Source of the DNA: Sulfurovum sp. bin170
GTDB taxonomy: Bacteria > Campylobacterota > Campylobacteria > Campylobacterales > Sulfurovaceae
Direction of reading: 5' to 3'
Assembly: GCF_010892395.1 (NCBI RefSeq)
Contig: NZ_JAACKB010000210.1
Coordinates: forward strand, 1-10,207
Length of the DNA: 10,207 bases
Below are positions 1 through 10,207 of the stretch, one piece after another. How positions within the stretch are numbered: position 1 is the first letter of the stretch; each line of letters begins with the position of its first letter. The translations under genes and the position numbers were made by a program. The notes beneath the pieces were generated by a model. That model ran no database searches. It was not told where the DNA came from and was given only the letters and a program-made list of their open reading frames with translations.

Positions 1-3
1 ATT

Positions 4-31
4 TTGATATTCACTCTTTTTATGTTAAAAT
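4..31 (+). promoter_or_regulatory. Possible sigma-70-type promoter for the export genes
   Basis: A TTGATA hexamer (4-9) lies 16 bp upstream of TAAAAT (26-31), which is preceded by TG at 23-24 (extended -10 form). A start near position 38 would give a leader of about 50 nt before the ATG at 91. The region is very AT-rich, so chance matches are likely, and a gene upstream of the window could also read through. Confidence 0.3.
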
Positions 32-76
32 ATAAATAAAATAGAATAGAATTAACTAGATGGTTAATGATTTTAA

Positions 77-81
77 AAGGA
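77..81 (+). promoter_or_regulatory. Ribosome binding site that fixes the start of the Wza-like gene
   Basis: AAGGA sits 9 nt before the ATG at 91. The in-frame ATG at 67 has no purine-rich site before it, and starting there would put eight extra residues ahead of the lipoprotein signal peptide. Confidence 0.6.
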
Positions 82-90
82 AATATAGAG

Positions 91-870
91 ATGAAGAGAG
101 TTATATTATATATAATAATATTGATAAACCTAACAGCATGTAGCATAAAAGAGGAGTTTGTTCTTTTTAATCAAAGTCCATCTATACAAGATGGTAGCAG
201 AGCAGAGAATCTGAATCGTACTATGGAGACAACCTATATTGATTCTGCAAAATTTGAATATAAGATTCGTCCACACGATAGAGTATCCATTATCACATAT
301 AAACGACCAGAGCTTAGTACCAATAATGGAACTTTAGGTACAGATGGTGGTTTGGGTCAAGGGTTGCTTGTTAACTCCAATGGAATCATCAGATTGCCAC
401 TTATCGATGATGTAAAAATCGCAGGATTAACGCAACCAGAAGCTCAACATAGGTTAGAGAGTAGATTTAGAGAGTATCTTCGACATCCAAGTATACAGGT
501 AGAGGTTGTGAATAAAAGAGCATTTATTCTTGGTGAGGTAAACAATCCTGGGCCTATAGAGCTTAGAAATGAGCAGATTCCACTTCTACAACTACTCTCT
601 GTGGCGGGTGATTTGACAAGAGGTGCCAACAGACAATCTATCATGATACTAAAGAATTATGGAGATAGTGTACAGACAAAGATTATAAGTCTCACCGATG
701 CAAACTCTATCGCAACAGCAAATCAGATGATTCGTCCTAATGATATTGTATATGTTGTTCCAAAAGGTATGGCTGTGTTTAACAGTAAAGTGGGTGAAAT
801 TAATCCAATTTTTCAGCTTATCACCAATGCCCTGACACCATTTCTTACTATTAGACTATTATCACAATAA
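91..870 (+). CDS. Polysaccharide export outer-membrane lipoprotein, Wza-like (short form)
   Basis: This is a predicted outer-membrane export channel subunit for capsule or exopolysaccharide. The 259-residue product starts with a lipoprotein signal peptide: Lys-Arg, a run of Ile/Leu, then the lipobox Leu-Thr-Ala-Cys with the acylated cysteine at residue 17. A Poly_export domain spans about residues 54-139 (YKIRPHDRVSI, then NSNGIIRLPLI and TQPEAQHRL). One SLBB domain follows at about 142-192 (ILGEVNNPGPIEL, then LLQLLSVAGDLTRGA). A hydrophobic/amphipathic stretch at about 237-255 near the C-terminus may be the membrane-spanning helix known from E. coli Wza. That protein has about 379 residues and further ring domains, so this is a shorter form with a single SLBB domain. 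The Wzc-like gene starts 8 nt after the stop, so the two are very likely co-transcribed. The ATG at 91 was chosen over 67 because of the ribosome binding site and the signal peptide. Confidence 0.9.
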   Translation: MKRVILYIIILINLTACSIKEEFVLFNQSPSIQDGSRAENLNRTMETTYIDSAKFEYKIRPHDRVSIITYKRPELSTNNGTLGTDGGLGQGLLVNSNGIIRLPLIDDVKIAGLTQPEAQHRLESRFREYLRHPSIQVEVVNKRAFILGEVNNPGPIELRNEQIPLLQLLSVAGDLTRGANRQSIMILKNYGDSVQTKIISLTDANSIATANQMIRPNDIVYVVPKGMAVFNSKVGEINPIFQLITNALTPFLTIRLLSQ

Positions 871-878
871 GAGATGCG

Positions 879-3164
879 ATGATAAGCAGAAGTAAACAGA
901 AAACAGAAGAGAATCCTCTTGTAGAGCTATTTTCAACCATTAAACCCTACAAGTGGTCAATATTCTCAATCACAGCCATATCGGCTATATTGACTCTTCT
1001 GTATCTATATTTTCAGCCATCAATATATGAGTCTTATGCCATTATCAAAATCAAATCTGAAACTAGAGGAGGGGAGAGACTGCGAGATATTGACCCCCTT
1101 AGTAGTGCTTTGTCAATATCGGGTAATAGTGAAGTTGACCAAGAGTTAGCTATTTTAAAGACTTTCTATACAAATAACAGAGCTATTGAGAGACTGGCAA
1201 ATAAAAAACCTATTGAGAAAATAGATCTAAAAATACAATATTTTAAAGAGGAGGGTTATAAGGAGGTTGAGATATTTTTAGAATTTCCGATTGATATTAG
1301 AGAGATAAAATTTTTTAATAAGGATATTTTAGGTGAAAAAATAAAACTCATACCTGCAGGTGATGGCTTTCGCATCAAGATAGATGATACTATAGCTTCA
1401 GAAATTTATAACTATGGAGAGAGTGTTAAAACAAATAAATTTAGATTTATTGTTGATAAAAAATCCAAATTAAAAAAACCAATATATTTTAAATTTAATG
1501 GCAATAATAGGAATATATATGAGAAGATAATTAGAAAAAATCTAAAAGTATCCAGACTAAATGAGAATGTCTCTCTCATAAAAGTTGCCTATCAAGACAC
1601 CTCCCCATCCAGAGCTACGGCATATATTAATGCTCTAGTAGATGTATATATAGCACAAAGTATAAAAGACAAGAGTAAAAAAAACAATAAGATATTGGAT
1701 TTTATCGAGGAGCAATTGGGTAATACAGGAAAAAAATTGAAGTTATCAGAGAGTCAACTCGAAGAGTATAGAGTCTCAAACTCTGTTATTGAACCATCTA
1801 TTCAATCAGAAGCACTTATAAACAGACTTAGCACTGTTGAGGTTGAACTCTCTGAAAATAGTATAAGAGAGAGACTAATCTCAAATCTACTAACATTTGT
1901 AAAACATAATAAAAATCTTGATAGTATTACCCCCACTCTGCGTGAACTTGAAGATGAGCCTACCATTAGAGTTATAGAGAGACTACAAGACCTGCAAAGA
2001 AGAGCAAGTGAACTAAGAAGAGATTTTACAGAGAAACACCCTGATTTGAGAGCTGTACGAAGAGATATAGCCAGAAGCAAGAGAACCATTTTGTTAAATA
2101 TAGAGAGTCTAAAATCCAATATATCAGCTAGAAAGAAAGATTTAATCTCTCTAAAAAAAGAGTATGAAGAGAGTCTAAAAACTCTACCAACAAAAGAGAA
2201 ACAGCTTATCGGATTAAGACGAAACTATGAGGTAAATTCGAAGATGTACTCATATCTTCTTGAGAAAAAATCAGAAAATGAGATGAAAAAAGTAGCAACT
2301 ATTTCTGATTATGAGATAGTTGATAGAGCCTATTCAAACGGTATACCCATTAAACCAAAAAGGTTATCAAGCTTAGTGATTTTCACCCTGTTTGGCTCTG
2401 TCTTTGCTGTGTTATTATCCCTTTTGCGTAATTTTATGATTAATAGAGTTCAAAATATAAAGGAGGTTGAACGCCTTACTACTTTGCCTATATATGGCTC
2501 TTTACCTATCACAGCAGATACAGGATTTGAGATTTCAGATCATCCAGAGTCAAAGTTATCAGAGAATTTTCGTAGCATACGGACAACTCTTCAATTTATA
2601 CGGAAAGTTGACAAAAGTAATATAATTTTAGTAACATCCAATGCACCCAAAGAGGGAAAAACAGTAATAACAGCAAATCTGTGTGCTATATTTCAGATGG
2701 CAGACTACAGATCTATTGTCATAGACCTAAATCTATATAGACCAGAAATTCATAACTACTTTAACATAACCAATGACAAAGGGATAAGCGACTATCTTCT
2801 AAACAAACGCGATAAGATTGAAGATATTATCCTACCCACTGCCTATCCAAACCTAGATATTATTACAGCTGGACACAGTGTAACAAATCCCTCTGATTTG
2901 ATTCTATCTGACAAACTGGAGTCGCTTATAGCTAGGCTAAAAAAGGAGTATGATTTTATATTTATAGATACTGCTCCATTCTCTATGGTAGCCGATACGC
3001 TATATCTCATGCAACATGCTGATATAAATCTCATTGTTATACGAGAGCAGATTGCTAAAAAATCATTTGTCTCTAACTTAGAAGATATGGTAAAACAGCA
3101 TGGTATTAAAAATGTTGGATTGGTTATTAATGGAACTACTGAACTCCTATCTGATAGTATCTGA
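879..3164 (+). CDS. Wzc-like polysaccharide co-polymerase with BY-kinase-type ATPase domain, lacking the tyrosine-rich tail
   Basis: This inner-membrane protein (761 residues) is expected to partner the Wza-like channel and control polymer length and export. The N-terminal Wzz domain has a first membrane helix at about residues 26-46, a long periplasmic region with coiled-coil character (about 260-450), a GNVR-like segment (about 437-475) and a second helix at about 497-518 preceded by PIKPKR. The cytoplasmic ATPase domain has an E-x2-R-x2-R oligomerisation motif (E562, R565, R568), a Walker A loop SNAPKEGKT (587-595), a Walker A' strand [10 protein letters not shown] (613-622) and Walker B FIFIDTAP (693-700). 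Two features are odd. The Walker A' motif has Asn618 where families such as E. coli Wzc have a second Asp. The protein also ends in [15 protein letters not shown] with no C-terminal tyrosine cluster, which is the usual autophosphorylation site. The last 29 bp overlap the end of ugd on the other strand. The family assignment is secure; kinase activity is doubtful. Confidence 0.9.
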
Positions 3165-4461
3165 ATCCACTTTTTGCTAAAGTATCTCTGTTGTATTGGT
3201 TACGCCCATCAAAGATAATAGCATTTTTAAGTCGTTTCTTCATCTCTATAAAGTCAGGACTTCTAAACTCTTTCCACTCTGTTAATAGGATAAGAGCATC
3301 TACATCAGAGAGGGCTGTATATTTGCTATCAACATACTCTACACGCTCATTACCTTTGAGATAAAAGTTCTCTGCTTCGTGTCGTGCTTTTGGGTCATAA
3401 GCTTTAATCTTGGCTCCTCTTTTGGTAAGTTCATTGATAACCACAATAGAACTAGCCTCTCTCATATCATCTGTTTCTGGTTTGAATGCCAATCCCCAAA
3501 CAGCAAATGATTTACCCTCCAAGTTCTCTCCAAACTTTTTAACAACCTTATCTGAAATCACTCGCTTCTGTGCATAGTTTACCTCTTCAACAGCGTCAAG
3601 AATTTTAGGTATATATCCATAATCTTTGGCTGTCTTAGCCAGTGCCTGTACATCTTTTGGGAAGCAGGAACCACCATATCCACAACCAGGGTAGATAAAA
3701 GAGTACCCAATCCGACTATCACTTCCTATACCATTACGAACTTGATTGACATCTGCTCCAACTCTCTCACAGATATTGGATATCTCATTCATAAAAGAGA
3801 TTTTGGTAGCCAACATCGCATTTGCTGTATATTTAGTCATCTCAGCAGACTTGATATCCATAGAGATAAACCTGTCATGACTTCGTGTAAAAGGTGAATA
3901 TAACTCTTTCATGACATCAATAGCCTCTTGTGAATCAGCTCCAATTACAACACGGTCAGGCTTCATAAAATCCTCAATTGCTGCACCCTCTTTTAGAAAC
4001 TCAGGATTTGAAATAACATCAAAAGTCAAATTTGAACTGCGAATATCAAGTTGGGTTTGAATCATCTCTTTTACCTTATCGGCAGTACCTACAGGAACAG
4101 TACTTTTATCAATTACAAACATATGATGCTTCATATTTTCACCAATTGACTTTGCTACGGCAAGGACATATTGTAAGTCAGCACTTCCATCCTCTCCCAT
4201 AGGTGTACCAACAGCGATAAAACAGATATTTGAATTATCCAGAGCCTCCTTAATATCGGTAGTGAATTTGATACTCTTTTTTTTATAGTTTTCTAAAACC
4301 ATAGTCTTTAAACCCGGTTCATAGATGGGAATTTTCCCCTCTTTTAGTTCGGCTACTTTTTTCTTATCAATATCTACACATATTATACTGTTTCCCATCT
4401 CTGCAAAACATACTCCACTAACCAAACCTACATATCCTGTGCCTATCACACTTATTCTCAT
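3136..4461 (-). CDS. ugd: UDP-glucose 6-dehydrogenase
   Basis: This cytoplasmic enzyme oxidises UDP-glucose to UDP-glucuronic acid with two NAD+, supplying a uronic acid for capsule or other surface glycans. The 441-residue product is full length for the family. It begins [12 protein letters not shown] with the Rossmann motif G7-x-G9-x-x-G12. Other family motifs are FIAVGTP (81-87), STVPVGT (120-126), SNPEFLKEG (151-159) and the [17 protein letters not shown] helix (210-226). The catalytic cysteine is C266 in GGSCFPKD, and the C-terminal UDP-binding domain begins with [15 protein letters not shown] (322-336). The ATG is preceded by AAAGG with a 6-nt spacer. It is the last gene of the minus-strand set but lies 240 bp beyond the phosphoglycosyl transferase gene, behind a hairpin-repeat region, so it may be expressed partly separately. 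Its last 29 bp overlap the wzc-like gene, yet its own C-terminus (FRYYQIGVQ) looks normal. Confidence 0.97.
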
Positions 4462-4503
4462 CTAATACCTTTTTATTTTTTTATTAAAATTCTTCCAAAG
4501 TTA

Positions 4504-4546
4504 GGAACCGATGGCTTTAGCCTCGTCATGTTCGGGACTAAAGTCC
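4504..4546. repeat. Palindromic repeat, copy A
   Basis: This copy matches copy B (4628) and copy C (6612) over more than 40 bp. Its left arm is CGA, bulged T, GGC, loop TTTA, GCC, TCG (4509-4525). Its right arm is GGAC, loop TAAA, GTCC (4535-4546). Unlike B and C, it lacks the closing CCGATTCC; the next CCGATTCC comes after the variant arm, at 4599-4606. Confidence 0.85.
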
Positions 4547-4581
4547 AATACCATTGAATTAAGCTTTTTTTAAACCAAATA

Positions 4582-4609
4582 GTTCGGGTGTAAACACGCC
4601 GATTCCGAA
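4582..4609. repeat. Variant arm of the palindromic repeat (GTG/CAC inner stem)
   Basis: The arm is TCGG (4584-4587), GTG, loop TAAA, CAC, bulged G4598, CCGA (4599-4602), followed by TTCC. It keeps the outer stem, bulge position and loop of the copy B right arm, while two inner base pairs are swapped with their partners. Confidence 0.7.
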
Positions 4610-4627
4610 AATGCAGATTGCATATAA

Positions 4628-4700
4628 GGAACCGATGGCTCTAGCCTCGTCATGTTCGGGACTAAAGTCTCCGATTCCAAATAAGTTTTGCAAGAAGTCT
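4628..4700. repeat. Palindromic repeat, copy B, with shared flank
   Basis: The core is 4628-4678, bounded by GGAACCG and CGATTCC, which are imperfect inverted repeats. The left arm (4633-4649) has loop TCTA instead of TTTA. The right arm (4656-4674) is TCGG, GAC, loop TAAA, GTC, bulged T, CCGA. The flank containing GTTTTGCAAG (4685-4694) is also present beside copy C, with a 1-nt length difference, so the repeat unit is about 73 bp. Confidence 0.85.
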
Positions 4701-4701
4701 A

Positions 4702-5370
4702 TTATAAATAACCTTTTAACTCTTTTGAAACAGTTGGTAGATTACTGAAAACTCTCTGATATACTCTACTTTTTGAAAATAGAACAACCCAAACAGTCAG
4801 AACGATTAGCTTCATATATGTTGATATACCTTGATTTGCTACATACCACTGCTCTAGCTCACCTTTATAAGGGGCTATAATATTATCATAAAATTTCAAT
4901 CTATCAACTTTATTGTCATCTAACATAGACTCTTCATCTCTAAAGATAATAGAACCGATACCTGAAAGACCTGGTTTTACCTCAATAATTGCATTTTGTG
5001 ATTTTTTTGGAAAAGCAAAAAAGCAACGCTTGGTTTGAGGTCTTGGGCCTATAACACTCATATTTCCTATTAAGATATTTAGAAGTTGAGGTAACTCATT
5101 GATTTTTGTTTGTCGTAAAAATTTACCAAAAGGTAGTACTCTTGAGTCACCTTTAACTGTAATCGTTTGAGTTCCCATACTTGGGCTATCTTTTAGCATC
5201 GTAGCAAATTTAAATAGTCCAAACATATCACCATTTTTACCTACTCTTTGCTGTATATAAAAAATCTCACCCTCTCCTGTAAATCGTAAAACTATCATTA
5301 CTGGAATTAAAAAAGGCGAAAAAACCATTAACGCTAATCCTGAAAAAAATATATCAAATAATCTTTGCAT
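4702..5370 (-). CDS. Phosphoglycosyl transferase (bacterial sugar transferase, small PglC-like form)
   Basis: The product is predicted to transfer a sugar 1-phosphate from a UDP-sugar to undecaprenyl phosphate at the inner membrane, the first membrane step of glycan assembly. At 222 residues it has the size of the small monotopic class. It opens with a hydrophobic re-entrant helix (about residues 5-29, LFDIFFSGLALMVFSPFLIP). It then has the family signatures YIQQRVGKNGDMFGLFKFATM, DSRVLPFGKFLR (75-86), NELPQLLNILIGNMSVIGPRP (91-111) and KPGLSG (132-137). The C-terminal region holds a further hydrophobic stretch (about 186-199). The position of the catalytic Asp-Glu dyad of PglC reads Asn91-Glu92 here. 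AGGA lies 7 nt before the ATG, and the ATG follows the dehydratase stop codon by 2 nt, so the two are translationally linked. The neighbouring dehydratase and aminotransferase suggest a 4-amino-4,6-dideoxy-HexNAc donor; the actual substrate cannot be read from the sequence. Confidence 0.92.
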   Translation of the reverse strand: MQRLFDIFFSGLALMVFSPFLIPVMIVLRFTGEGEIFYIQQRVGKNGDMFGLFKFATMLKDSPSMGTQTITVKGDSRVLPFGKFLRQTKINELPQLLNILIGNMSVIGPRPQTKRCFFAFPKKSQNAIIEVKPGLSGIGSIIFRDEESMLDDNKVDRLKFYDNIIAPYKGELEQWYVANQGISTYMKLIVLTVWVVLFSKSRVYQRVFSNLPTVSKELKGYL

Positions 5371-5372
5371 AA

Positions 5373-6575
5373 CTACATCCTATTGTCTAAAAATTTACCA
5401 GTCTCTTTGTGACCAAAGTCTGGAATCATTCTAAAAAAGAGCTCAATTGTCTCCTCTTTAGCCCATCTATCTTGCTGTTTAATATTCTCTATTTTTGATA
5501 AAAAGTACTCTAACTTTTTCTCATCAAATATAGGTTCATTTTTTATTACTCCTAAATTTTCAAATCTATCCATATCCAAAATCTCTTTGTCGGTAAAAAA
5601 CTCTTCAAAATCTTTCTCACCTGTAGTATCACTCTCAAAGAAATAGCAAGGCCACTTTTTTGAATTTTGAATTTTGAATTTTGAATTTTGAGTAAAAAAA
5701 CTTCTTGCTTCATCCTCTGTTTTGCAAATATATGGTTCATAGCCAATCTCTTCAAGATATTTAACAGCAATATCAGCAAATGAGATAAGATGTAGTTTTT
5801 CACTCAACTTAGGAAAAAATATGTCTCTATTCTCTCCAAGCAGACAGCTCATCAGACAAAGCTCTCCTGACTCCTTTGGTGTTACAAAATATCGTTTAAT
5901 ATCAGTAGGAGCGGAGAGTGGTTGTCTCTTTTGGATACGCTGATTAAATCCATGGAGCAAAGAACCATCACTAAAAGCTACATTGGCAAATCGTGCTGTT
6001 GAGATTGGAATATCCAAACTCTTTTGCATCAAAAACATCTCCATAATGCGTTTGGATGCCCCCATCATATTGACAGGATTGGCAGCCTTATCCGTTGAGA
6101 CACAGAAGTATTTTTTGACACCATGCTTTTTTGACTGCTCAATGGTTTTGATGGTATTTTCGATATTGACCTCAATCATTCTCATCAATGTAAAGGGGTC
6201 TTTTTCACTTCTTACATGTTTTAGAGCCGAGAGATTTAGTACGAAGTCATACTCTCCGTCAGACTTGATAAAAGCATCATAAGCCCTACTAGCAACATCT
6301 AGTGCAAAGGTTCTGAACTCACCATCAATATAACCTAGAGAGCTTCGTATATCTCTAACTAGCTCAACCATATTGTTTTCACTAATATCAACCACATGCA
6401 GTTTTTTAGGATTGCGTCTAAAAATCTCTTTGGTAACAGCCTGTCCGATACTTCCCGCACCACCAATAACTAGAAATGAGGAACTCTCGACAATAGAGCT
6501 TAACTCTTCACCAAATCTCTGCATATCTTCATCAAACAGTTCATCCTCTCGACCGATTAAATTCAGTATATTCAT
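5373..6575 (-). CDS. UDP-GlcNAc 4,6-dehydratase-like SDR (soluble PglF/CapD/LegB type)
   Basis: Members of this extended SDR family convert a nucleotide-activated GlcNAc to its 4-keto-6-deoxy form, the substrate of the aminotransferase encoded just upstream. The 400-residue product has the NAD(P) motif GGAGSIG (38-44), VVDISE (61-66), LNLSALKHV (113-121) and STDKAANPVNMMGASKR (160-176). Thr161-Asp162-Lys163 and Met171...Lys175 have the same spacing as the PglF catalytic residues, where Met replaces the usual SDR Tyr. No membrane helices are present, so this is the short cytosolic form. Residues about 290-310 contain QNSKFKIQNSKK, encoded by five heptanucleotide units, in a poorly conserved-looking C-terminal part. 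A strong AGGAGG lies 8 nt before the ATG, inside the last codons of the aminotransferase gene, whose stop is 1 nt upstream. Whether the substrate is UDP-, CDP- or GDP-linked is not determined. Confidence 0.9.
   Translation of the reverse strand: MNILNLIGREDELFDEDMQRFGEELSSIVESSSFLVIGGAGSIGQAVTKEIFRRNPKKLHVVDISENNMVELVRDIRSSLGYIDGEFRTFALDVASRAYDAFIKSDGEYDFVLNLSALKHVRSEKDPFTLMRMIEVNIENTIKTIEQSKKHGVKKYFCVSTDKAANPVNMMGASKRIMEMFLMQKSLDIPISTARFANVAFSDGSLLHGFNQRIQKRQPLSAPTDIKRYFVTPKESGELCLMSCLLGENRDIFFPKLSEKLHLISFADIAVKYLEEIGYEPYICKTEDEARSFFTQNSKFKIQNSKKWPCYFFESDTTGEKDFEEFFTDKEILDMDRFENLGVIKNEPIFDEKKLEYFLSKIENIKQQDRWAKEETIELFFRMIPDFGHKETGKFLDNRM
5658..5692. repeat. Heptanucleotide tandem repeat inside the dehydratase gene
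   Basis: There are four perfect TTTTGAA units (5658-5685) and a fifth, TTTTGAG (5686-5692), all inside the coding region. Because 7 is not a multiple of 3, gain or loss of one unit shifts the reading frame. Confidence 0.95.
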
Positions 6576-6576
6576 G

Positions 6577-7806
6577 CTACTTACCTCCTAATATTTTTTT
6601 TGCTAAACTATGAACCGATGGCTTTAGCCTCGTAATGTTCGGGACTAAAGTCTCCGATTCCAAAGAGTTTTGCAAGTTGTCTAAACTTTTTTTGAGACTT
6701 TCACACACCAAATCAACCTCATCAAATGTCATGGTTGGATAGAGTGGGAGAGTCAGTTCTCTAGTTGCAATATCCTCAGCTATAGGAGCAGAGTTCAGTC
6801 CAATCTCTCTAAATGCTCTGAAATCTTTAAATGCAGGATAGTGAATAGAGGATTGAATCCCCATCTCTTTGAGTCGTCCAATAAGAGCTACTCTATCTAT
6901 CCCATGGTTTAAAAGGATTGGAAAAATATGATATACCGACTCAATATTTGTCAAATCTCTAAATGGAATAGAGAACTCTTTGACCTCTGATAGATTTGCG
7001 ATATATCGCTCCACCAAAAGTTTTCTACTACGGTTTGCATCATCCAATTTATCAAGTTGCACGAGTCCCAAACTAGAACGCATCTCATCAATACGATAGT
7101 TAAGTCCTGACTGTGCAATATCATAGGTGATGGCTCGTCCTTTGTGTCTATCTAGTGTAAGGGCTGTCATCCCATGACTTCTAAAGTACTTTGCCTGTTG
7201 GTCAAGTTTCTCACTTTTGGTGGTCAACATCCCACCCTCTCCAACAGATAGATTTTTATTGGTAAAGAAGCTAAAACATCCATAATCACCAAATGTTCCA
7301 CAAGCTTGACCTTTGTATTTCGCATCAGGGGCATGAGCACAATCTTCAATAAGAGCAATATTCTGTCTGTTACAAAGCTCTACAATCTCATCCATCTCAC
7401 ATGGATAACCAGCAAAATGAACCAAAATAAGAGCTTTTGTCTTATCAGTAATCTGCTCTTCTATAGTCTGTGCGGTGATATTCCAGTTATTATAATTGCT
7501 ACAATCAGCAAGTATGGGTGTGGCTCCCACCATTCGAACCACATTAATATCAGCCACAAAAGTAAGAGCAGGGATAATCACCTCATCACCAGATTTAATA
7601 TCCAGTGCCAAGAGTGCCATATGAAGTGATGCTGTTGCACTAGATACTGCTGTAGCGTAAATATCTCCACCTAACATATCAGCAAACTTATCCTCAAACT
7701 CTTTTGTCTTTTCACCCATAGTTATCCATCCACTATCAACTATATCTTTGACAGCTTCACTCTCTCTATGGTCGTAATTTAGTTTAAACAGTTGTACTTT
7801 CCACAT
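6577..7806 (-). CDS. DegT/DnrJ/EryC1-type PLP-dependent sugar aminotransferase with a repeat-derived C-terminal tail
   Basis: The product is predicted to transaminate the 4-keto sugar made by the neighbouring dehydratase to a 4-amino-4,6-dideoxy sugar, as PglE or LegC do. Of 409 residues, about 1-374 form the usual family fold. Motifs include SGWITMGEKTKEFE (25-38), SSATASLHMAL (55-65), IEDCAHAPDAKYKG (153-166, Asp155 expected to contact the PLP ring nitrogen) and SFFTNKNLSVGEGGM (179-193, Lys184 expected to bind PLP). It ends with family-typical ELTLPLYPTMTFDEVDLV (350-367). Residues about 375-399 (including SLESETLVPN and RLKPSVHS) are encoded by palindromic repeat copy C, followed by LAKKILGGK, whose codons carry the ribosome binding site of the next gene. 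AGGAG lies 6 nt before the ATG, and the glycosyltransferase stop is 1 nt upstream. The fold and active site look intact; the tail is probably not needed for catalysis, which is an inference. Confidence 0.92.
   Translation of the reverse strand: MWKVQLFKLNYDHRESEAVKDIVDSGWITMGEKTKEFEDKFADMLGGDIYATAVSSATASLHMALLALDIKSGDEVIIPALTFVADINVVRMVGATPILADCSNYNNWNITAQTIEEQITDKTKALILVHFAGYPCEMDEIVELCNRQNIALIEDCAHAPDAKYKGQACGTFGDYGCFSFFTNKNLSVGEGGMLTTKSEKLDQQAKYFRSHGMTALTLDRHKGRAITYDIAQSGLNYRIDEMRSSLGLVQLDKLDDANRSRKLLVERYIANLSEVKEFSIPFRDLTNIESVYHIFPILLNHGIDRVALIGRLKEMGIQSSIHYPAFKDFRAFREIGLNSAPIAEDIATRELTLPLYPTMTFDEVDLVCESLKKSLDNLQNSLESETLVPNITRLKPSVHSLAKKILGGK
6584..6589 (-). promoter_or_regulatory. Strong Shine-Dalgarno for the dehydratase gene, inside the aminotransferase tail
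   Basis: AGGAGG with an 8-nt spacer to the ATG at 6575. It is formed by the Leu-Gly-Gly codons near the end of the aminotransferase gene, so translation of the two genes is probably coupled. Confidence 0.75.
6611..6682. repeat. Palindromic repeat, copy C, embedded in the aminotransferase coding sequence
   Basis: The core (6612-6661) matches copy B base for base except for loop TTTA, one A for C in the central spacer (6634) and the first base. The left arm is 6616-6632 and the right arm 6639-6657. The flank GTTTTGCAAG (6667-6676) matches copy B. The whole unit is read through in frame, without a stop, by the aminotransferase gene. Confidence 0.9.
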
Positions 7807-7807
7807 T

Positions 7808-8947
7808 TTATACTCCTATTTTTTTATATACATTATGATAATTCTCAACTACTCTATCTAGGTCAAACTCTTCCACTTTAACTTTTGCATTTTTTTGATA
7901 TATCTCTAGCTTATCTCTGTTCTCAGCCATATATATCATCTTGCTACAGAGATCTTTTTCATTCTCTATCTCCATTAATTTACCGTTATACTCATCGGTC
8001 ACAACATCTTTACACCCTGGCATATTCGTTGTAATTAATCCTAATCCCATAGCTGATGCTTCCAACAGTACTCTTGGAACGCCCTCTCTATAGTAAGTTG
8101 GCAGTACAAAAATATCTGAAAGTGAGAGTAGCTCTTTTATATCTTCTCTTCTACCTAAATAGTTTACGAAATCACCATAAGCCTCGATCTCTTCAAGTTT
8201 AATTGACTCATCTGTATCAAGTTGACCTACCAATAGAAAGTTATATCTATACCCCTCTTCATAGCACAACTTCGCAGCTTTAAGATAGGTCAAAATTCCT
8301 TTCTGTTTTACCATTCGACTAACTAGAATAAATGTTTTTTGACTCTTATCAATCGACAACTCTTCTACCAATTTTTCTACTCTACTTTTATCAATTTCTG
8401 TGCTAAAGTTTTGCAAATCAATACCACTACTCTTGATAGTTTTTGATTTATCTTCAGCAGATAGGTTGTGTTGTGAAAAATATTTAGCATCATCATCATT
8501 TTGAAATATAGTAAAATCAACTCTTGGCTTAATTGATTTTTGAACAATATTATAGACTTTTGTTAGAAGCCTATTTTTTAGATTATCTTCTGTAAATATA
8601 CGCCCCATACCTGTAATAGTTCTACTTACCTTAATATTTTTCAGTCCAATTGAAGCTAGTGGCAAAAATATTGTAGGTTTAGTATCAAACGCATGAACAA
8701 TAGTATTCTCCTCTTTCTCTTTTAAAATTTTTCGTAGATTCAAGATAGATTTTATATCACTAAATGCTCCAAATTCTCTACTAAAACTATACTGCTCATA
8801 ATCAATACTGTTTTGAATAAACTTATCCTCTTTTTCTGTACCAATAATATTGATGTTGTAACCAAGTTTTATAAATTTTTTTGAAATCTCTATACGGCTA
8901 CTGACATCCTCTCCCCCTAAAAATATTAAATTTGTCTCTCTTACCAT
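7808..8947 (-). CDS. GT4-family glycosyltransferase (PglA-like)
   Basis: This is a predicted GT-B-fold, retaining glycosyltransferase acting at the cytoplasmic face of the inner membrane, adding a sugar to the lipid-linked intermediate made by the phosphoglycosyl transferase. The 379-residue product has an N-terminal acceptor domain (about 1-190) with NLIFLGG, VHAFDTKPTIFLPLA and RTITGMGRIF. The C-terminal donor domain has FILVSRMVKQKG (206-217), FLLVGQ, YLGRREDIKELLSLSDIFVLP and YREGVPRVLLEASAMG. The last of these contains the E-x7-E motif of the family (Glu288, Glu296). The start at 8947 is set by GGAGG with a 5-nt spacer. A start at 8983 would add 12 residues without such a site and lengthen the overlap with the upstream gene. 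The first 7 bases overlap the end of the AsnB-like gene (ATGGTAA). The overall pattern resembles Campylobacter PglA, but donor and acceptor specificity are unknown. Confidence 0.9.
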   Translation of the reverse strand: MVRETNLIFLGGEDVSSRIEISKKFIKLGYNINIIGTEKEDKFIQNSIDYEQYSFSREFGAFSDIKSILNLRKILKEKEENTIVHAFDTKPTIFLPLASIGLKNIKVSRTITGMGRIFTEDNLKNRLLTKVYNIVQKSIKPRVDFTIFQNDDDAKYFSQHNLSAEDKSKTIKSSGIDLQNFSTEIDKSRVEKLVEELSIDKSQKTFILVSRMVKQKGILTYLKAAKLCYEEGYRYNFLLVGQLDTDESIKLEEIEAYGDFVNYLGRREDIKELLSLSDIFVLPTYYREGVPRVLLEASAMGLGLITTNMPGCKDVVTDEYNGKLMEIENEKDLCSKMIYMAENRDKLEIYQKNAKVKVEEFDLDRVVENYHNVYKKIGV

Positions 8948-10207
8948 TTTTTCCTCCACATAACATATACCATTATCATCCATATAAAAGTTGGATTCTC
9001 TATTTTCCCATTTTTCAGATCTTCACTAATTTTTTTTAAAGAGGACTCTTTAATAATTGCATCCTCTATTAATATCTTATTCTCTAAAGCACTGAGTGCC
9101 TCCTCTTTTAACTCATTTAGAATCCAAAATTTCAGAGGCACTGTAAAGCCTGATTTTGGTCTATCTGTTATGCTTTTGGGTATATATCTATTAAGTACTT
9201 TACGCAGAAGATATTTCCCATCGCCATCTTTATACTTAATATCTGAAGGAACCCTAGCCATATACTCCGCTATTCTATGGTCAAGAAGAGGTTCACGCCC
9301 CTCCAAAGAGAGACTCATCGTAGCTCTATCTACTTTGCAGAGAACATCATCTACCATAAATGTTTTATAATCCATTGCCATCATCTGGTCAATTGTGTCT
9401 AGGTTACTATTCTTTTTAAAATCTCCAAATGAGACTTTTTCAAAATTTTTAAATGCTCCATCGACCAGAACATCATCTAAAAAACTAGCTTCTACTACTG
9501 AACTAGCTCTAATGAACATCTCTTCTGAACTATTGGAATTAATCATATTTTTGAATTTTTTGAATTTATCAGCAATATTTGACTCTTTTTTCGATTTTGG
9601 AAGCAGTGAATTTAAAAAAGTCACACTAGTTTCATTTAGCGTGTTTGCAACTATTTTCAAAACTCTATATCTGAATCTGAATTTTGATTTTCTCAGTGCT
9701 TCTATCTTTTTTATTGCAAAATATTTGCTATAACCGAAAAAGACTTCATCCCCACCATCTGCAGAGAGTGCAACAGAGACATCTTTTTTGGCTAGTTGAG
9801 AGACAATCATTGTAGGTAGTGCAGAGTCATCAGCAAAAGGTTCATCCCAATGGTAGCTAAGTTTGTCTACTAGTTTTAACATATCATCTGCCGTGCAGTA
9901 GTATTCTGTATGGTCTGTTCCTAGATAGTTAGCAATTTTTTTCGCATCATTGGCTTCATTGAACTCTTTTTCCATAAATCCAATGGTAAAAGTTCTGATT
10001 TTCTCTTTACTATTTTTCTGTAGAAGTGCTGTCACAGTGGAGCTATCATACCCTCCACTTAGAAAAACGCCAACAGGAACATCAGATACCATTCTAAGTT
10101 GACAAGAGTCGATGATTAAATCCTCTAAATCATACAGAATCTCATCTTCACTTTTTTTATTTTTCTCCATAGAGTAGAAGTCATAAATATCCCAATATTT
10201 ATAAATA
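8941..10207 (-). CDS. asnB: Asparagine synthase-like amidotransferase, synthetase domain (5' end outside the window)
   Basis: The visible 421 residues are the C-terminal, ATP-dependent synthetase half of a class-II (AsnB-type) amidotransferase. The frame stays open to the right edge (the residues before the internal Met at 10168-10170 read IYKYWDIYDFYS), so the real start and the N-terminal glutaminase domain should lie beyond 10207. Visible motifs are the PP-loop SGGYDSS (10039-10059), SADGGDEVFFGY (canonically SGDGGDE, here Ala for Gly), CKVDRATMSLSLEGREPLLDHR and RPKSGFTVPLKFW. The family makes asparagine from aspartate. Members inside O-antigen and capsule clusters, such as WbpS, are linked to amidation of uronic acids, and a ugd gene in the same locus fits that role. 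Its last 7 bases overlap the glycosyltransferase start. The family call is secure, the glycan role is inference, and the gene symbol denotes family only. Confidence 0.88.
   Translation of the reverse strand, partial: IYKYWDIYDFYSMEKNKKSEDEILYDLEDLIIDSCQLRMVSDVPVGVFLSGGYDSSTVTALLQKNSKEKIRTFTIGFMEKEFNEANDAKKIANYLGTDHTEYYCTADDMLKLVDKLSYHWDEPFADDSALPTMIVSQLAKKDVSVALSADGGDEVFFGYSKYFAIKKIEALRKSKFRFRYRVLKIVANTLNETSVTFLNSLLPKSKKESNIADKFKKFKNMINSNSSEEMFIRASSVVEASFLDDVLVDGAFKNFEKVSFGDFKKNSNLDTIDQMMAMDYKTFMVDDVLCKVDRATMSLSLEGREPLLDHRIAEYMARVPSDIKYKDGDGKYLLRKVLNRYIPKSITDRPKSGFTVPLKFWILNELKEEALSALENKILIEDAIIKESSLKKISEDLKNGKIENPTFIWMIMVYVMWRKKW
8953..8957 (-). promoter_or_regulatory. Ribosome binding site that fixes the glycosyltransferase start
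   Basis: GGAGG followed by five A residues and ATG at 8945-8947. It lies within the last codons of the AsnB-like gene and argues for the shorter 379-residue product. Confidence 0.7.

Follow-up and report, generated by a model that had tools for sequence, protein, structure and literature searches.

Several kinds of short palindromic repeat are known to spread through bacterial chromosomes. Rickettsia palindromic elements (RPE) lie in frame in many unrelated protein genes and also between genes (PMC10969869, PMC3733652, PMC4316617). Miniature inverted-repeat transposable elements (MITEs) derived from insertion sequences (IS), such as RUP, Nezha, and QMITE, are short, are present in many copies, have two inverted ends and a target duplication, and encode no transposase (PMC3733652, PMC5896051); in-frame fusions have occasionally been reported for them (PMC10969869). 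Repetitive extragenic palindromes (REP) and bacterial interspersed mosaic elements (BIME) of the GTAG and CGTC families form inverted pairs of short hairpins, tandem arrays, and intragenic copies, with REP dimers nested in longer palindromes in A. variabilis and H. neapolitanus and CGTC repeats in Sulfurovum NBC37-1 (PMC3733652). Palindromes that code in frame have been described in Rickettsia and among the REPs of several species (PMC10969869, PMC3733652, PMC5896051, PMC4316617). Here, we describe a palindromic repeat present as copies A, B, and C in a 10,207-nt stretch of Sulfurovum sp. bin170 (assembly GCF_010892395.1, contig NZ_JAACKB010000210.1, positions 1 to 10,207), hereafter the window. 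Very probably, the repeats are non-autonomous MITEs moved by an IS5-family DDE transposase that recognizes AGACWTCTTKCAAAACT and duplicates 3 bp (ANT).

The repeat resembles each of these systems in part. Like RPE, it is a palindrome found in frame in unrelated protein genes (DegT, TrmB, a tail protein, and others, with the bare core in HrpB and CopA), although it belongs to another phylum and the likeness is one of behavior. It also comes with transposon ends and a target duplication, and an IS shares these ends, whereas the accessible parts of the RPE sources describe no such partner. It shares with IS-derived MITEs the general plan outlined above but differs from them in being only 90 or 91 nt long, in having a REP-like hairpin pair as its payload, and in that the length of its commoner form plus the duplication is a multiple of three. 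It shares paired hairpins, tandem arrays, and intragenic copies with REP and BIME elements but differs from them in that its core has no conserved GTAG or CGTC tag and in that no link to a REP-associated tyrosine transposase (RAYT) was seen. The core may be related to the Sulfurovum CGTC family.

When copies were aligned together with their flanks, the full unit proved to be a larger palindrome of 90 or 91 nt that consists of AGACWTCTTKCAAAACT, an A, a 51-nt core, a short spacer, and AGTTTTGMAAGAWGTCT. The inverted ends are 17 bp long (AGACWTCTTKCAAAACT), the target duplication is 3 bp, mostly ANT, and no transposase gene lies within the unit, which measures only 88 to 93 nt. With at most two mismatches, the end motif occurs at 130 places in the host assembly, compared to 5 for the reversed control. 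Distinct cores, told apart by contig position, numbered 163 in the fetched stretches (80 in the host and 83 at other loci); the named loci include some orthologous copies, which were kept in the counts (e.g., L147/L165/L176 and L156/L161). Allowing five mismatches, both ends accompany 69 of these cores, one end accompanies 50, and neither end accompanies 44. The two-ended copies measure 90 nt in 37 cases and 91 nt in 29, with one copy each of 88, 92, and 93 nt. Their flanking 3-mers are identical in 48 of 69 (23 of 31 for host copies), and 43 of those 48 are ANT; re-pairing the flanks at random gave a mean of 12.7 and a maximum of 24 identical pairs in 20,000 trials. Of the 46 copies with ANT on both sides, 43 have the same middle base left and right. 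TA and TANTA were weighed by eye as target duplications and dropped, because ANT with symmetrical ends suits most copies. The signal for selection maintaining the pairing of the terminal inverted repeats (TIRs) was weak (the paired fraction was reached in 39 of 500 shuffles), as expected when ends decay.

The repeat is widely dispersed, as the sequence-only reading of the window had proposed. A 33-nt stretch of the core matched, with at most three mismatches, 76 places in the host assembly (39 and 37 in the two orientations), compared to none for the reversed pattern, and at most four mismatches gave 79 cores within the fetched stretches. The core is present in 16 of 34 same-genus genomes, the host among them, and in 0 of 66 other genomes. 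Named core matches (74 stretches, from a scan whose matches may not include the records of the host itself) came from Sulfurovum-type and other Campylobacterota metagenome assemblies and from one contig labeled Lutibacter. Four core units stand in tandem at a 78-bp spacing in a Sulfurovum metagenome-assembled genome (L129, reverse strand, about 2650 to 2930). The core is therefore neither confined to the three places in the window nor the product of one local duplication: copies A and B do lie only 124 nt apart, but the number of places in both orientations, the spread across the genus, and the target duplications at unrelated sites leave local duplication a negligible chance of having produced the three copies.

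A plausible source of the transposase was found in relatives. IS5-family elements of 903 to 917 bp with exactly the 17-bp MITE ends occur in two same-genus genomes (G032 and G023) and in a third genome (G079). The G032 element is 903 bp long with act on both sides; the G023 element, also of 903 bp and with exact ends, has its left end at a contig end; and G079 holds seven copies of 915 to 916 bp with identical 3-bp flanks, all aat or att, as well as an eighth place with a 917-bp copy and act on both sides. Wherever both IS flanks are readable, they are thus aat, att, or act, which is a target duplication of the MITE type. We take ANT to be the duplication of the ISL2 group within IS5. The right end of the 91-nt MITE also agrees with the G079 element for six further bases past the 17 (CATTTG). 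The transposase gene is divided between two overlapping frames in both G032 and G023; those of G032 match NF033581 (IS5 family) with E values of 3.7e-35 and 1.6e-12, each under the whole-protein cutoff of 140 bits with the gene split in this way, and exceed the cutoffs of the HTH_Tnp_4, PF13359, and PF01609 profiles (the last two being DDE_Tnp_4 and DDE_Tnp_1). Among the 100 genomes searched, the host included, DDE_Tnp_1 was found in 42, and 1 of the 30 DDE_Tnp_1 loci fetched has the exact end motif on both sides (L194, in G079). Core and IS occur together in G032, and core and an IS fragment with one end occur together in G020. In addition, a sister IS in G023 (L218 and L219) has ends AGACTTCTTGCATAACC and is flanked by att.

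MITE and IS share their ends and their target duplication, the MITE is dispersed, and empty sites exist in relatives; the IS5-family transposase itself probably performs the transposition of the MITE. We propose that this enzyme would recognize the 17-bp ends AGACWTCTTKCAAAACT, move the MITE, and duplicate 3 bp (ANT). The payload between the ends is the 51-nt palindromic core with its two inverted hairpin arms. The commoner 90-nt form is usually open in one frame in either orientation, and a gene that receives it can gain 31 residues with its frame intact.

In the window, copies A, B, and C lie where the sequence-only reading had placed them, with A and B in one spacer, between a UDP-glucose/GDP-mannose dehydrogenase gene and a bacterial sugar-transferase gene, and C in one open reading frame (ORF). 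The ends GGAAC and ATTCC that it had assigned to the repeat are also real, but they bound the 51-nt core (A is without its right end) and not the mobile unit, which is larger. A and B are the two cores of a single compound element of 215 bp (4486-4700) with ATT on both flanks, and element C spans 90 nt (6593-6682) with AAT on its left and AAA on its right. The features are as follows.

4483-4485, no strand: left target-site duplication ATT of the compound element, identical to 4701-4703.
4486-4502, plus strand: left TIR of the compound element, decayed, with 5 mismatches to AGACWTCTTKCAAAACT.
4504-4545, plus strand: core A, two hairpin arms; a nested sequence cuts off its right end.
4545-4581, plus strand: left end of a second palindromic element (CCAATGCCAATGAATTA type) nested in the core; it recurs in other compound copies.
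4582-4606, minus strand: third REP-like arm, GGAATCGGCGTGTTTACACCCGAAC; the same arm occurs in C87 and in other compound copies.
4628-4678, plus strand: core B, a complete 51-nt core (GGAACCG...CGATTCC).
4684-4700, minus strand: right TIR of the compound element, exact AGACTTCTTGCAAAACT.
4701-4703, no strand: right target-site duplication ATT, overlapping the stop codon of the sugar-transferase ORF (4702-4704).
6577-7806, minus strand: DegT/DnrJ/EryC1 aminotransferase ORF (PF01041), reading through element C.
6590-6592, no strand: left flank AAT of element C; the right flank (6683-6685) is AAA, and 2 of 3 bases agree.
6593-6682, plus strand: element C, a 90-nt MITE that makes, with a 3-nt duplication, a 31-codon in-frame insertion.
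6611-6661, plus strand: core C, 51 nt.
6666-6682, minus strand: right TIR of element C, with 1 mismatch.

The third arm (4582-4606), which sits between cores A and B, was absent from the sequence-only reading. The second palindromic element, with ends CCAATGCCAATGAATTA and TAATTCATTGGCATTGG, is nested in a core at 4545-4581 and also in L089, L097, L101, and L103, and in those nested copies it stands at or beside the arm palindrome GGCTTTAGCC or GACTTTAGTC. Elsewhere in the window, a perfect heptanucleotide tandem repeat of TTTTGAA (4.9 copies, 5658-5691) lies within an epimerase/dehydratase ORF (5373-6575); since 7 is not a multiple of three, a change in copy number would switch the frame, and phase variation of this ORF is possible.

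The 51-nt core corresponds to 17 codons, and its ends, GGAA and TTCC, are nearly invariant in 66 aligned copies. Read as two hairpins, as in the sequence-only reading, these copies have 99.0% of their cells paired, and arm 2 has seven compensatory cells at two pairs (pair 61, A-U with five G-C; pair 62, C-G with two G-C). Of 500 shuffles, none reached the seven cells, but 26 reached the two pairs and 189 the number of further pair types. A single long hairpin is the energy minimum for the single strand but shows zero compensatory cells in the aligned copies, and it was rejected as the conserved structure for want of compensatory change. Both folds are possible, and the substitutions favor two arms. 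These compensatory changes, together with the position of the window's compound element directly after a gene's stop codon, could also suggest a family of structured regulatory RNAs or terminators, kept for their hairpins and dispersed incidentally. We consider this very unlikely, as the target duplications and empty sites show transposition and the ORFs that contain copies, in either orientation, have unrelated functions; the hairpins may have a side role in RNA.

A link to RAYT transposases was the sequence-only reading's suggestion for how the repeat moves, and it did not hold up. In its favor, the core has a REP-like anatomy of two inverted hairpins with a conserved GGAAYCG foot, and RAYT genes are common in relatives, where NF047646 (RAYT) matches 41 of 60 genomes, 20 of them over the cutoff. 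Moreover, in C87, a dimer of the core type and a broken IS605-like pair are no more than about 200 nt apart, which we take to be coincidence because core copies are so many, and in G032 (L210 and L232, G032:C52), a RAYT-family gene interrupted by one in-frame stop codon follows immediately after the IS5-family element, an adjacency that explains why L232 shows the end motif. However, at 30 RAYT-family loci (one per genome in 30 genomes, 20 over the cutoff, with host places C28 and C404 left out), core arms with at most five mismatches were absent apart from one five-mismatch hit (L248) that we judge to be chance. The host RAYT gene (L037, G000:C32, 5399-5917) has GTAG-tagged palindromes of its own on either side (GTAGGTTCGGTAACACCGAAC) and in this resembles an ordinary RAYT-REP unit; the present elements end instead in IS5-type TIRs with a target duplication. 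The 66 aligned cores have no conserved GTAG tag and end in GGAA/TTCC, and a CGTC tag was discarded because it is not conserved: among the 64 copies with an anchor (5 of 69 were dropped), the candidate position reads CGTC in 21, CGTT in 24, CGTA in 10, and other sequences in 9. After these searches of RAYT loci in the host and its relatives, an association of the core with RAYT was rejected, and it is highly improbable that the repeats are REP or BIME elements moved by such a Y1 transposase. Another host locus (L038, G000:C352, 440-1350) holds two RAYT-family genes in opposite orientation, one of them cut short.

ORFs with no functional connection to one another contain copies, in both orientations, and several of these copies can be compared to relatives that lack them. 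Element C and the 3-nt duplication insert 31 codons close to the end of the aminotransferase gene; beyond them, the frame carries on to its stop codon, and what looks by eye like a ribosome-binding site precedes the next gene. The insert is missing from all seven close DegT orthologues (68 to 80% identity). In TrmB, a 31-residue insert is missing from all 29 aligned orthologues, and the DNA reads GAGTTTCC-ATT-element-ATT-TGAATCTG where a relative has GAGTTTCCTTTTGAATCTG. Other two-ended, in-frame cases are a phage-tail protein (L028), a GntR/aminotransferase regulator (L131), a penicillin-binding-protein-like ORF (L137, named by eye), and C-terminal extensions (L040 and L049), and the copy between a UPF0227 region and an HD-domain region (L106) may mark a gene fusion. 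The same pattern was seen in other genomes. Among two-ended copies whose length is divisible by three, 14 of 38 lie within ORFs of at least 150 codons, compared to 1 of 31 others (Fisher p = 0.0006). One frame is open throughout in 32 of 37 copies of the 90-nt form read forward and in 29 of 37 read in reverse, and for the 91-nt form the figures are 3 of 29 forward and 24 of 29 reverse; this openness is not proof of selection, because copies share ancestry. Since 90 + 3 nt make 93 nt, or 31 codons, a gene can take up the MITE and gain 31 residues with no shift of frame. The elements therefore persist in coding sequence, as RPE do.

Several observations weigh against the MITE explanation proposed here. 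Identical flanks are missing in 21 of the 69 two-ended copies, and those of copy C agree in only 2 of 3 bases; the copies share ancestry, some named loci being orthologous, and are thus not independent. The host assembly, which is 83% complete in 462 contigs, a state in which a multicopy IS is easily lost, yielded no IS5-type transposase (PF01609, 0; PF13359, 0), and G023 and G079 carry the IS but have no core match. At least 6 of the 14 long-ORF cases (L020, L024, L029, L056, L127, and L160) are located no further in than the probable start and are thus possibly noncoding, and stricter tests gave 6 of 38 versus 0 of 31 copies with at least 30 open codons on both sides (p = 0.023) and 4 of 38 versus 0 of 31 with at least 50 (p = 0.085), so that, by strict criteria, the association of length with ORFs is suggestive rather than strong. 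Lastly, the 44 of 163 places where the core has neither end are left unexplained by the MITE model alone.

These bare cores have either been trimmed from MITEs or arrived independently, by a mobility of their own. In HrpB, an 18-residue core-type peptide stands at one site in 7 of 60 aligned proteins, query included (the best 60 of 120 listed from 5,647 hits), and the other 53 have 4 to 7 residues there; P0008 and P0035 resemble partial remnants. In CopA, 20 residues occur at the site only in the query among 60 aligned proteins (444 hits), with a near-full-length core peptide a few columns off in P0149. CopA homologues P0146, P0149, P0154, P0158, and P0131 have core-like peptides in the same loop, several of them shorter than that of P0149 (e.g., LESETLVPN, LESEAFAPN, and GSDGFSL), which are possibly remnants of earlier insertions in both orientations. 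In phosphotransferase system (PTS) enzyme I, the core peptide is missing from all 18 aligned orthologues, and the bare core replaced resident codons, with a net gain of 12 residues over the nearest relative. Other cores have outer ends of a different kind, of the AAGTACCTACCC... type. At L044, L048, L065, and L175, the core has variable outer ends AAGTACCTACCCAAAATTAATTT ... TACTT, a possible third vehicle.

The 51-nt core might accordingly be an independent mobile coding palindrome, RPE-like or an untagged REP dimer, for which the IS5-type ends are one of several vehicles. The many cores with neither end, the sharp drop in similarity beyond GGAA...TTCC, the other outer ends, the shared HrpB site, and the tandem array in L129 all fit this idea. 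On the other hand, neither a target duplication nor a transposase could be found for the bare cores, the codon replacement in PTS enzyme I is not a clean insertion and could also stem from the trimming of a larger insert, and many bare copies retain the TA of the MITE's ACTAGGAACC (T 0.64, A 0.50; an AT-rich background could partly explain this). We regard independent mobility of the core as possible, though unlikely. A bolder version, in which the core is a self-spreading, protein-coding palindrome that rides on unrelated transposase vehicles (IS5-type, AAGTACCTACCC-type, and nested CCAATGCC-type) and the 90-nt vehicle length is kept for whole-codon insertion with the 3-bp duplication, strikes us as doubtful; if true, it would describe a transposable peptide module that diversifies conserved proteins and whose mobilizer is known.

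On the evidence for a MITE with an IS5-family partner, these repeats are small DNA parasites that carry the ends of a full transposon, and some of them sit in genes with the frame unbroken. Among the titles listed from the open-licence literature on Sulfurovum with MITEs, insertion sequences, and palindromes and on miniature inverted repeats of the Campylobacterota/Epsilonproteobacteria, none describes the present element. While the kind is known, an RPE-like coding element with IS5 ends and a partner appears to be new within the literature searched. An RPE-like element that comes with transposon ends, a target duplication, and a matching IS makes the question testable in another group of bacteria, and the sum of 90 and 3 nt to 31 codons offers a simple arithmetic route by which a MITE can enter genes without a frameshift.

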